Both the position numbers and the translations under genes were made by a program. Below are positions 50,513 to 53,773 of a DNA stretch of 64,000 nt, one piece after another (position 1 is the first letter of the stretch; the number at the start of each line of letters is the position of its first letter). Source of the stretch: Solitalea longa (GTDB lineage Bacteria > Bacteroidota > Bacteroidia > Sphingobacteriales > Sphingobacteriaceae); the NCBI RefSeq assembly GCF_002920915.1, contig NZ_PQVF01000006.1, positions 186,001-250,000 on the forward strand. The letters run 5' to 3'. The notes below the pieces were generated by a model. The model saw nothing but the letters and a program-made list of their open reading frames with translations, was not told the DNA's origin and searched no databases.

Positions 50513-51568
50513 ATGAAGAACGTTTACTATTTACTTAGCCTGGTATCTTTTGTTTTTTTGCTATCCTCATGCTTAAAAAACGAAAGATCAAATGCTGTTA
50601 TCCATGAAAAGGAGGAACGGCCCAAAAAAGCAGCGCCCGCTGTTATAGGTTCTGAAAAGCTCAATTTTAAAAAGACATTTACCGGCAAAATCAACAAACG
50701 AGAGGACGTGGTTGTAAATTTATCAGCAAAGGAGGGCAAGATTAAAGGCTTTGCCGTTATTAAGAAAAGTGGGAAGAGGATTCCGATAGAAGGAGAAATT
50801 GATGAAGAAGGTCACTTAGAGGCAAAGGCCCTTTTTGAAACTGGATTTAAGCAAGTTTTAAAAGCCGATATGGAAAACGGGGAATTGAAAGGCGGTATAA
50901 TTGACCCGAAGAATGAAAGAACTGACTCAGTAAGTTTAAAAGAAAACTTTGCTGCTGCGGCCACCCCTGATAAAGATCTGCAATGGGTTAAGGATCCTGG
51001 ATTGACAAGTAATGGATTTAAACAAATCTTGTGGCTCCAAAACCGCTTCGATCCGCAAATGAATGATTCGTTGATCACCATTACCGTTAATTCTGAATAC
51101 GTTTATACATGTCCAAAGCCCGTGAGAGCTGTCTTAGGCTATTACAGCACAATGGCCGGCGCCGATTATTCGGCTTCAGATGGCGAGCCTAATGCAAATT
51201 ACTCAGGTTTTAGAAACTTGCTGATTGATGCACTCGATTTTGATTTTCAGGGTTCTGATAAGCAGATTAGATATTTAAGCAATTGGTTTAGAAAAGAACC
51301 AAACGTTCTTAAACAAATAAATAACGGTTATTTTGTATCATATGGCTCGAGCTGGTTTCGTCAGTTCGATTCAATTAATATGAAGTATGAAGGCGACTCC
51401 ATTATTGTGAACTTTGCCTATTTTGATTGTGATATGAGCAAATCAGACAGATGGGAAATAATTGGTACCGGTAAATTCAAGGTGGTGGATGATATGATAC
51501 ACCTTATTGATCAAAAAGCAGATACGGTTAGGGTAGCTGCAATTCCTCAAATGGCTGTGACAAAATAA
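50513..51568 (+). CDS. Lipoprotein of unknown function
   Basis: A 351-aa lipoprotein: signal with LLSSC lipobox and C20. Residues 45-150 form a beta-rich repeat-like domain (GKINKREDVVVNLSAKEGKIKGF, IPIEGEIDEEGHLEAKALF). The C-terminal half (160-351) has FDFQGSDKQIRYLSNWF and VNFAYFDCDMSKSDRWE. I recognise no family; the first part resembles the beta-propeller-like or MORN-like pattern only loosely. It ends at a terminator shared with tRNA-Glu. The start is the first ATG giving a lipoprotein signal. Confidence 0.7.
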   Translation: MKNVYYLLSLVSFVFLLSSCLKNERSNAVIHEKEERPKKAAPAVIGSEKLNFKKTFTGKINKREDVVVNLSAKEGKIKGFAVIKKSGKRIPIEGEIDEEGHLEAKALFETGFKQVLKADMENGELKGGIIDPKNERTDSVSLKENFAAAATPDKDLQWVKDPGLTSNGFKQILWLQNRFDPQMNDSLITITVNSEYVYTCPKPVRAVLGYYSTMAGADYSASDGEPNANYSGFRNLLIDALDFDFQGSDKQIRYLSNWFRKEPNVLKQINNGYFVSYGSSWFRQFDSINMKYEGDSIIVNFAYFDCDMSKSDRWEIIGTGKFKVVDDMIHLIDQKADTVRVAAIPQMAVTK

Positions 51569-51590
51569 TTTTAAGCTATTATTAAACATA

Positions 51591-51624
51591 AAAAAAGCGT
51601 ACTGAACTTCAGTACGCTTTTTTT
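51591..51624. terminator. Bidirectional terminator at tRNA-Glu copy 1
   Basis: AGCGTACTGAA / TTCAGTACGCT with A and T runs. The core AGTACTGAA-type stem is also found beside tRNA-Glu copy 2. Confidence 0.85.
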
Positions 51625-51625
51625 G

Positions 51626-51697
51626 TAGCCCGTACGGGAATCGAACCCGTGTTTCCAGAATGAAAATCTGGCGTCCTAACCCCTAGACGAACGGGCC
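51626..51697 (-). tRNA. tRNA-Glu (TTC), copy 1
   Basis: 72-nt minus-strand tRNA: acceptor GGCCCGT / ACGGGCT, anticodon loop TTTTCAT (anticodon TTC), T-loop TTCGATT. No encoded CCA. It has its own consensus promoter and terminator and lies 249 bp past the rrf2 gene stop. Confidence 0.96.
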
Positions 51698-51710
51698 ATT
51701 TAACGTGGCG

Positions 51711-51741
51711 CAAAGGTACATAAATGAGCGTATGATGCAAA
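51711..51741 (-). promoter_or_regulatory. Promoter of tRNA-Glu copy 1
   Basis: Minus-strand -33 TTTG (plus CAAA, 51738-51741) and -7 TACCTTTG (plus CAAAGGTA, 51711-51718), 19 bp apart. Consensus match. Confidence 0.75.
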
Positions 51742-51872
51742 TGACTGATTCAATAAAATAAAAAATAAAGTATAAGTGATTGAATCATAGAATGATTTTT
51801 TTTCGATATTCTATTTGTACATAAAGCTAACGGGCCTTGTTCTTAGCTCTAAAAATCAGTCGGGATGCAAAA

Positions 51873-51924
51873 TGAAAAATGATATTCGATCCGCAAGATC
51901 TTAGCAAAAGTTCGAATATCATTT
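51873..51924 (-). terminator. Terminator of rrf2 gene
   Basis: A 13-bp perfect stem (51877-51889 with 51912-51924, AAATGATATTCGA type), followed on the minus strand by a T-rich tract. It is 21 bp past the Rrf2 stop. Confidence 0.75.
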
Positions 51925-51945
51925 CTTTTAACGGAGGGAAGTTTA

Positions 51946-52386
51946 TTATTCCCTCAGAAAATTATTGATTACATTTCCTTTTGAAATACTTATAGCCAGC
52001 TCTTGAATTGTTTTTGTGGAAAAGAGTTTCAGTAATTCAATTTTAATCGGTTTGTAATTATTGTGAAGCGGACAAGGATGTTTATCATCACATTCTCTGA
52101 GACCAAGCACACAAGCGCTAAAAGGGTTGGGCCCGTCAATGGCATAAATAACATCCATCACTGAAATAGGGGCTGCATTTTTTTCTAAAAAAAAGCCACC
52201 ATTTGGCCCTTTGGTTGATGATACAAGTCCTTGCTTAGAGAGTGTTTGGAGAATTTTAGCTATAAAATGTTCCGGGCTGCCTGTTTCTTTCGCAATATCT
52301 TTAATGCTAAGTTTGTCACCTTCGGTGCTTTTGTGAGCAATATAAATAAGAGCTCTTATGCCATATTCGCAAGCTTTAGAAAACAT
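51946..52386 (-). CDS. Rrf2 family regulator (NsrR/IscR-like)
   Basis: A 146-aa winged-helix regulator. DNA-binding part LSIKDIAKETGSPEHFIAKIL and wing SSTKGPNGGFFL. Three cysteines C92, C99 and C105 can hold a [2Fe-2S] or [4Fe-4S] cluster as in NsrR and IscR. Next to it lies a RIC di-iron repair gene, which in other bacteria is NsrR-controlled, so nitric oxide sensing is the best guess. It is downstream of that gene on the same strand with 84 bp between. Confidence 0.88.
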   Translation of the reverse strand: MFSKACEYGIRALIYIAHKSTEGDKLSIKDIAKETGSPEHFIAKILQTLSKQGLVSSTKGPNGGFFLEKNAAPISVMDVIYAIDGPNPFSACVLGLRECDDKHPCPLHNNYKPIKIELLKLFSTKTIQELAISISKGNVINNFLRE

Positions 52387-52470
52387 TTAATAGTGTTTTA
52401 GTTTCTAAAGGTAAATGTTCACAAAAAAAATAGAATTAAAAACCTAAGGGACTTAATTTCTGCAATCAAA

Positions 52471-53205
52471 TCACATTTCCGTTAATTCTTTTTCAAGTAA
52501 ATCAGCTTTTGGAAACAAAATGTTGTTTTCCAGGTGAATATGTGTATGCAGGTCATTCTCAAATTCCTCCAATTTTGAATATAAAATCATGTAAGTACTA
52601 CAGGCATGAAGAGGAGGTGTGTAATTAAACGACAATAATCGAATAGTTTTCATCAAATCACCGGCAATATCATGTTCCAACTCCATCATGTTGATAGGAT
52701 CTTTAACAGTTCCAAAAGCGGCAACTTTCATATGACCGTTTGTTCTTTTGCAATTCACCAGCTCTTTTACATACGGAAATAGAATTTGTTCTTCTTTGTA
52801 TAAATGGCATTGAAGTTCCGATGCTAGTTCATGTAATAACTCTGCAATTTTTATGTTTTCGGGATTGTGCTCCCCATGTACATGAGCCACTTTTGTTGCA
52901 TATTCAAGCAATAATGGTAGTGATTGATTTACGTACTTATGATGCTTATTGATAATGTGGTCAATCAAAACATCCAATTCCCAATCGTCGTAATTTTCTG
53001 CTTTCATGCTGGTGTTTTCAATCTCAAGCAGGGCTGCTTTCAGCTCTTCGTAATTAATGCCTTTTCGTAGGCAAGCTTCTTTCACAGAACTCCTCCCTCC
53101 ACAGCAAAAATCAATTCCATATGCTTTAAAGACATCTGCTTTGCGATAATCTTTAGAGACCAATTCTCCAATCGTCTGTCCGGTTAATTCGGTTATTGCA
53201 TTCAT
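52471..53205 (-). CDS. ric: Iron-sulfur cluster repair di-iron protein (RIC/ScdA/YtfE)
   Basis: A 244-aa repair protein for iron-sulfur clusters damaged by nitric oxide or oxidants. The N-terminal ScdA_N domain has the cysteine pair in GIDFCCGG. The hemerythrin-like domain (about 80-240) supplies His/Glu ligands in HIINKHHKYV, HVHGEHN, HLYKEEQILFP, ELEHDIAG and HTHIHLENNILFP. The start at 53205 (MNAITELTGQ) matches the family; the 52-codon upstream extension is rejected. It precedes the Rrf2 gene, likely an operon. Confidence 0.93.
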   Translation of the reverse strand: MNAITELTGQTIGELVSKDYRKADVFKAYGIDFCCGGRSSVKEACLRKGINYEELKAALLEIENTSMKAENYDDWELDVLIDHIINKHHKYVNQSLPLLLEYATKVAHVHGEHNPENIKIAELLHELASELQCHLYKEEQILFPYVKELVNCKRTNGHMKVAAFGTVKDPINMMELEHDIAGDLMKTIRLLSFNYTPPLHACSTYMILYSKLEEFENDLHTHIHLENNILFPKADLLEKELTEM

Positions 53206-53360
53206 AGCATTACTTTTTGATATCCTCAAATATACATGATGTTCTAAATAAGAGATAAAATTATCTTTTATTATTTTATTGAGCAGCGTTTCGAGGTCAA
53301 CTGTTAAATGATTTATTGCTGTAAGTTTTGGGAGCAGAGAATTGGAGCGAGGCTGAAACA

Positions 53361-53392
53361 AAAAAAGAGTACTGAAATTCAGTACTCTTTTT
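53361..53392 (-). terminator. Terminator of the tRNA-Glu array
   Basis: AGAGTACTGAA / TTCAGTACTCT hairpin with a T run on the minus strand directly after tRNA-Glu copy 2. Confidence 0.85.
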
Positions 53393-53394
53393 GG

Positions 53395-53466
53395 TAGCCC
53401 GTACGGGAATCGAACCCGTGTTTCCAGAATGAAAATCTGGCGTCCTAACCCCTAGACGAACGGGCC
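53395..53466 (-). tRNA. tRNA-Glu (TTC), copy 2
   Basis: Identical 72-nt body to copy 1. The plus-strand bases 53392-53394 are TGG, so a 3' CCA is encoded, unlike copies 1, 3 and 4. Last gene of a three-tRNA array. Confidence 0.96.
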
Positions 53467-53534
53467 AATTATTCAAAGTTTTGTTAAAATAGAAAAAGCT
53501 TACATCTTAAGCTTGCTACTAAAAGTAATTTCAG
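53467..53534. repeat. tRNA-Glu array spacer A
   Basis: A 68-bp spacer nearly identical to 53607-53673. On the minus strand it carries AGCTTA / TAAGCT followed by T bases, a weak terminator-like or processing hairpin. It shows that the tRNA unit (about 140 bp) was tandemly duplicated. Confidence 0.8.
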
Positions 53535-53606
53535 TAGCCCGTACGGGAATCGAACCCGTGTTTCCAGAATGAAAATCTGGCGTCCTAACCCCTAGACGAA
53601 CGGGCC
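53535..53606 (-). tRNA. tRNA-Glu (TTC), copy 3
   Basis: 72 nt, same sequence as the other copies, no encoded CCA. No promoter box directly upstream, so probably transcribed with copy 4. Confidence 0.96.
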
Positions 53607-53673
53607 AATCATTCAATTTTTGTTAAAATAAAAAAGCTTACATCTTAAGCTTTGCTACTAAAAATAATTTTAG
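53607..53673. repeat. tRNA-Glu array spacer B
   Basis: A 67-bp near-copy of spacer A (53467-53534), with the same AGCTTA / TAAGCT hairpin. Confidence 0.8.
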
Positions 53674-53745
53674 TAGCCCGTACGGGAATCGAACCCGTGT
53701 TTCCAGAATGAAAATCTGGCGTCCTAACCCCTAGACGAACGGGCC
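53674..53745 (-). tRNA. tRNA-Glu (TTC), copy 4
   Basis: 72 nt, same sequence. First gene of the three-tRNA array; a promoter lies just upstream. Confidence 0.96.
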
Positions 53746-53765
53746 TTTATTTTTTTAACGGACTG

Positions 53766-53773
53766 CAAAGATA
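53766..53773 (-). promoter_or_regulatory. -7 box of the tRNA-Glu array
   Basis: Minus-strand TATCTTTG, a perfect consensus -7 box. Flanking bases resemble those before copy 1 (TTTAACG followed by GCAAAG on the plus strand). No clean -33 TTTG. Confidence 0.65.

Follow-up and report, generated by a model that had tools for sequence, protein, structure and literature searches.

A predicted NO-responsive ric-rrf2 operon within a tandem tRNA-Glu array of Solitalea longa, a probably derived layout

In Solitalea longa, the genes ric and rrf2 lie inside a tandem array of tRNA-Glu genes. We consider it quite probable that this pair, as an NO-responsive operon, entered an older array after the split from the nearest relative compared (G001). 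The locus is contained in a 64,000-nucleotide stretch of contig NZ_PQVF01000006.1 (positions 186,001 to 250,000), which we call the window and whose coordinates are used below.

The tRNA-Glu array and ric-rrf2 are flanked by gapA on one side and a lipoprotein gene on the other. Transcribed from the minus strand, in this order, are the -7 promoter box of the array (TATCTTTG, 53766-53773), tRNA-Glu(TTC) copy 4 (53673-53745, the first transcribed), copy 3 (53534-53606), copy 2 (53394-53466; 53392-53466 in the tRNA scan), an intrinsic-terminator-like site (53362-53392, stem GAGTACTGAA/TTCAGTACTC), ric (from the ATG at 53205 to 52471, 244 aa), rrf2 (51946-52386, 146 aa), the -7 box of copy 1 (TACCTTTG, 51711-51718), tRNA-Glu(TTC) copy 1 (51625-51697) and a second intrinsic-terminator-like site (51590-51624), homologous to the first. 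The boxes were assigned from the sequence; TAnnTTTG is the -7 promoter box of Bacteroidota. The operon is therefore located between the third- and the fourth-transcribed tRNA-Glu, on the strand of the tRNAs, and the insert contains no ORF of at least 80 aa other than ric and rrf2. The original prediction had placed copy 1 and copies 2-4 on either side of the pair, all on the minus strand, and these coordinates were confirmed, with Rfam and tRNA scan boundaries of the four tRNAs agreeing within 1-3 nt. Because the terminator after copy 1 is palindromic, it could also serve the lipoprotein gene, which ends at 51568 on the plus strand.

The four 73-nt tRNA-Glu genes are identical in sequence and are the only full-length ones found in the 4.5-Mb genome, where one short fragment also occurs inside a tRNA-Arg. 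Among the 56 tRNAs listed for the genome, there are nine tandem same-isotype clusters (Lys, Phe, Val, Gly, Asn, Asp, Pro, Met and Glu). The other eight resemble the Glu array in having one isotype and short spacing but, by coordinates, Glu alone has space for, and contains, protein genes between its copies. Each of the array spacers (53467-53533 and 53607-53672) has a pair of conserved hairpins, GCTACTAAAA../..TTTTAGTAGC and AAGCTTA../..TAAGCTT (the latter with a T after it), which perhaps have a role in processing or weak termination.

The tRNA gene and its terminator are duplicated as a block on both sides of ric-rrf2. A direct repeat of 74 identical bp is found at copies 1 and 2, at a distance of 1.77 kb, and the alignment of the two copies from the tRNA through the terminator end has 4 mismatches and 3 gap columns in 108 columns. 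The near-identical terminators that had been noted downstream of these copies were borne out, the two 3′ flanks scoring 52 against a maximum of 25 in 2000 shuffles. In a pattern scan, exact matches to the terminator stem were found at these two sites only. Allowing up to 2 mismatches added one more site, but the reversed control then gave 2 matches per strand, so that only exact matches count. Comparison of the two terminators shows 3 stem-loop differences, of which two make up a compensatory pair, indicating that the duplication is not very recent. An assembly misjoin is unlikely, given that the genome is in 36 contigs and the repeats at the locus are 74 bp long.

The locus was compared in four genomes of the genus, one per species: the window genome (G000), G001, G002 and G003. 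DNA identity to the window at the locus was highest in G001 (85%), and was 77% in both G002 and G003. The comparison of relatives proposed in the original prediction gave four tRNA-Glu genes in every genome, with the rrf2-ric pair at this site in 0/3 of the others; an arrangement identical in all relatives, which would mean that it is old and stable, was thus not found. In G001, the four-copy array is unbroken between gapA and the lipoprotein gene, without ric, and the single ric match of this genome is on a different contig from the array. G003 likewise has an unbroken four-copy array, which norB and an AbiEi-like gene separate from the lipoprotein gene. In G002 (L037, L038), the array is split 2+2, two copies being beside gapA and two 24 kb away. 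The 24-kb insert has an ISL3-type transposase piece at its left end and contains a ROK regulator gene, together with genes that, by sequence alone, look SusC/SusD-like and glycosidase-like. The left and right array terminators of G002 are weakly alike (score 20, reached by 13/1000 shuffles). This weak likeness and the transposase piece at which the insert opens disfavour an event of the same type as in the window, and a different cause for the G002 split is likely.

The unbroken four-copy arrays in G001 and G003 indicate that the array probably came before the pair. An array-end terminator (CCTGCAA) is common to G001 and G002 (score 32, 0/1000 shuffles) and absent in the window; other cross-genome pairs scored 14-23, with 23 (0/1000 shuffles) for G001 and G003. 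In addition, the third array spacer kept in G001 is missing in the window. Because both features are missing here, the window layout is probably derived. The third spacer and the different array-end terminator also imply that G001 is not a simple excision product of a crossover between copies 1 and 2. When compared with the lipoprotein-side terminator of G001, the copy 2 terminator scored 33 (0/1000 shuffles) and the copy 1 terminator 24 (16/1000 shuffles), the latter being near the 14-23 of other pairs; these shuffle tests are lenient, since other pairs at 20-23 were matched by just 0-13/1000 shuffles.

In G002 and G003, the tRNA-Glu copies are of two sequence types, and likeness among the spacers of one genome is 40-57%. 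The eight tRNA-Glu genes of G000 and G001 do not differ from one another, and their five spacers show 86-93% likeness; spacers of these two species are homologous, with 87-93% identity between species. This points to an array that was re-expanded or homogenised before G000 and G001 split, and the identical copies and similar spacers make it probable that recombination among tRNA-Glu copies has occurred. The site itself is old, as a tRNA-Glu was found divergent beside gapA, by coordinates, in 5 of 38 genomes from other genera that were searched for the two genes (G009, G012, G020, G033 and G034). ARAGORN applied to 30 gapA loci, which exclude those five genomes, found tRNA-Glu only at the four of the genus. 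In another genus, G039 (L182, 481-2883) has two promoter-tRNA-Glu-terminator units 2.33 kb apart, whose promoter flanks are alike at 25/26 nt and which bracket a 585-aa lipoprotein-like ORF. This layout is similar to that of the window and apparently independent of it.

RIC contains the ScdA_N and hemerythrin domains (PF04405 and PF01814) and matches the model of the iron-sulphur cluster repair di-iron protein (TIGR03652) with 243.3 bits against a cut-off of 204.7, while scoring under the cut-offs of the narrower YtfE, ScdA and DnrN equivalogs. These domains and the NCBIfam equivalog assign it to the RIC/YtfE/ScdA iron-sulphur repair family. In profile searches, the regulator belongs to the Rrf2 family (PF02082, 1.6e-29; TIGR00738, 102.7 against a cut-off of 73.3). 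It remained below the cut-off of the NsrR equivalog NF008240 (50 bits against the 182 needed) and below those of the IscR, RirA, CymR and SUF-regulator equivalogs. Cys 92, 99 and 105, which we take to be the ligand positions of an Fe-S cluster, are kept in 5/5 Rrf2 proteins compared.

Both proteins are closest to those of a pair in G002. Window RIC is 68% identical to the G002 protein and 59-60% to the nos-cluster RICs of G000, G001 and G003; for Rrf2, the values are 80% for G002 and 62-65% for the others compared. The window and G002 sequences were sisters in the ric tree (support 99/97; 65 rows) and in the rrf2 tree (98/91; 25 rows), the latter with a five-row genus group at 93/98. The ric tree used 60 of 61 RIC loci, with L163 (a weak partial match) dropped, and loci of the named-genome scan are among its rows; the rrf2 tree used the 20 loci with an Rrf2 match above the score limit and five genus proteins. 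The end branch of the window ric is long (0.5, median 0.16). For several genomes of the family, RIC was identical to that of named Sphingobacteriaceae from Desertivirga, Pedobacter, Daejeonella and Pelobium, which identifies the family. The G002 pair (L033, 5558-6804), at the head of its nos/N2O reductase cluster, has the gene order, palindrome and -7 box of the window pair and, like it, a RIC without the DUF2249 extension. In contrast to the window pair, it is not within a tRNA-Glu array, is followed by a cytochrome c gene (judged from its sequence) and nosZ, and has a tRNA-Ser upstream. A second RIC, fused to DUF2249, is encoded in the nos cluster that the window genome itself possesses.

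These data bear on the alternative of an ancestral pair in the array that disappeared elsewhere by recombination between tRNA copies, which we regard as unlikely. Although the direct repeats of tRNA plus terminator would permit a clean loss and the pair has its nearest relative in the same genus, losses would be required in three other genomes. A crossover between copies 1 and 2 predicts three tRNAs ending in the GTACTGAA terminator, whereas G001 has four tRNAs, the third spacer and the CCTGCAA terminator as in G002. Furthermore, a RIC match was found in 91 of 301 genomes of the family, and none of the 30 other ric loci scanned (from 30 of these 91 genomes, ~1.5 kb on each side) had a tRNA-Glu; 29 had no tRNA at all and one, that of G002, had the tRNA-Ser. 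The choice of a gain over repeated loss rests on parsimony across the four genus genomes, one per species, and on the terminator and spacer evidence.

Somewhat less probable still is the original proposal that a promoter-tRNA-terminator unit was duplicated locally round a resident pair. The duplicated terminator speaks for it, as do the two such units round the 585-aa ORF of G039 in another genus. However, a pair held in place while units duplicated round it is at odds with the unbroken, pair-free four-copy arrays of G001 and G003 and with the four copies present in all four genomes. In addition, the promoter flanks of copies 1 and 4, which had been described as similar, scored 18, a value reached by 35% of 2000 shuffles (701/2000 in the repeat test). 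When 53 tRNA upstream regions were ranked, copy 4 was 9th (tied) against copy 1, and copy 1 was 31st against copy 4. Rank 1 for copy 1 was the spacer before copy 3 (score 24, 22/2000 shuffles), through a 12-nt run of A/T only. The TAnnTTTG motif occurs within 90 nt in 19 of 50 other tRNA upstream regions read, followed by C in 18 of the 19, and 8 of the 19 read TTTGCAGTCCC. The likeness of the two promoters thus does not exceed what chance and the general tRNA promoter box together would give. Because this likeness is generic, duplication of a whole unit including the promoter was rejected; the repeated tRNA-terminator block is the part of that claim which stood.

As a separate observation, TAnnTTTGCAGTCCC, which is longer than the usual -7 box, is common to 8/50 tRNA upstream regions of G000 (L194-L236). 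The 248-bp region separating rrf2 from copy 1 gave no convincing match in the four genus genomes when searched with a 260-base query, the next best match having an E value of 0.006 over 25 bp.

tRNA genes are common attachment sites of integrative elements, but an integrase-borne genomic island that used a tRNA gene in this way is very improbable, as no site-specific integrase gene was found among the insert ORFs of at least 80 aa and the direct repeat comprises the whole tRNA gene and the terminator, beyond the tRNA 3′ end.

The sequence also suggests how the operon may be controlled. A pattern search with the palindrome AATAAAAGAY-N6-RTCTTTTATT identified a predicted operator upstream of ric (AATAAGAGATAAAATTATCTTTTATT, 53247-53272, no strand assigned, 1 mismatch), and a predicted -7 box of ric-rrf2 (TATATTTG, 53227-53234, minus strand) lies 12 nt downstream of it. 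With up to 2 mismatches, the palindrome has 4, 3, 3 and 3 sites in the four genus genomes (13 in total), against per-strand counts of 1, 0, 1 and 1 for the reversed control. All 13 sites are upstream of ric (5), nosD (4) or norB (4, two as rrf2-norB), of which the three sites used to build the pattern are no independent support. At 12 of the 13, TAnnTTTG follows 10-14 nt downstream, towards that gene. The exception, in G001, has no -7 box and is nearer a divergent TetR gene (~145 nt) than norB (~260 nt), so that its target is uncertain. The four palindromes of G000 are upstream of rrf2-norB (C33:3541-3566), nosD (C5:36533-36558), ric of the nos cluster (C5:44063-44088) and ric of the window. 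In G003 (L032, 9858-12179), a palindrome-bearing norB adjoins the tRNA-Glu array, so that another species has a second NO gene at this site; norB is elsewhere in the other three genomes.

These sites suggest that ric, nosD and norB form a compact predicted NO regulon with a single palindrome, and that ric-rrf2 is probably an autoregulated NO-responsive Fe-S repair operon. The basis is presumably that of the NsrR family, in which an Fe-S Rrf2 protein represses its targets until NO damages the cluster. The NsrR-ytfE/dnrN systems of Proteobacteria likewise have a cysteine-bearing Rrf2 regulator beside or controlling a RIC/YtfE gene; unlike their regulators, the window Rrf2 misses the NsrR equivalog cut-off. 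According to an excerpt of PMC1274295, the NO-related targets of NsrR systems include norB and the operator consensus is gATGyAT-N5-ATrCATc, to which, compared by consensus, the window palindrome is unlike. Among the literature titles and abstract beginnings listed, none seemed to describe the locus or the palindrome in Bacteroidota.

The proposed history would begin with tandem tRNA-Glu genes already present between gapA and the lipoprotein gene. A ric-rrf2 pair of the same branch as the G002 nos-cluster pair would have entered this array with the operator and promoter that it carries in the window. During entry, the array would have lost its third spacer and its former end terminator, and the tRNA-plus-terminator block would have ended up as the direct repeats that flank the pair; the most likely route is homologous recombination through tRNA/terminator repeats. 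In the present layout, tRNA transcription would stop at the copy 2 terminator before reaching ric, and copy 1 would be transcribed from its own promoter. Acting through the palindrome, Rrf2 probably keeps ric-rrf2 repressed; once NO has damaged the Fe-S cluster of the regulator, RIC would be made. A crossover between copies 1 and 2 could plausibly delete ric-rrf2 with one tRNA, or duplicate them.

It is conceivable but doubtful that the array is an integrase-free landing and loss site, where cargo enters by homologous recombination at the identical tRNA and terminator repeats, differs between species, and is excised or amplified together with tRNA copies. If so, the cargo would be NO repair here, norB beside the array in G003 and a glycan-type locus in G002. 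Most likely, an ordinary NO-repair operon was relocated into a changeable tRNA array, so that the layout is derived, a lineage-specific rearrangement at a changeable spot and not a new system. The locus clearly exemplifies how a stress operon can lie among tandem tRNA genes with no integrase present. Of the three other genus genomes compared, two have this array either interrupted or bordered by different cargo. An easily testable by-product is the predicted one-palindrome NO regulon of ric, nosD and norB for this genus of Sphingobacteriaceae.
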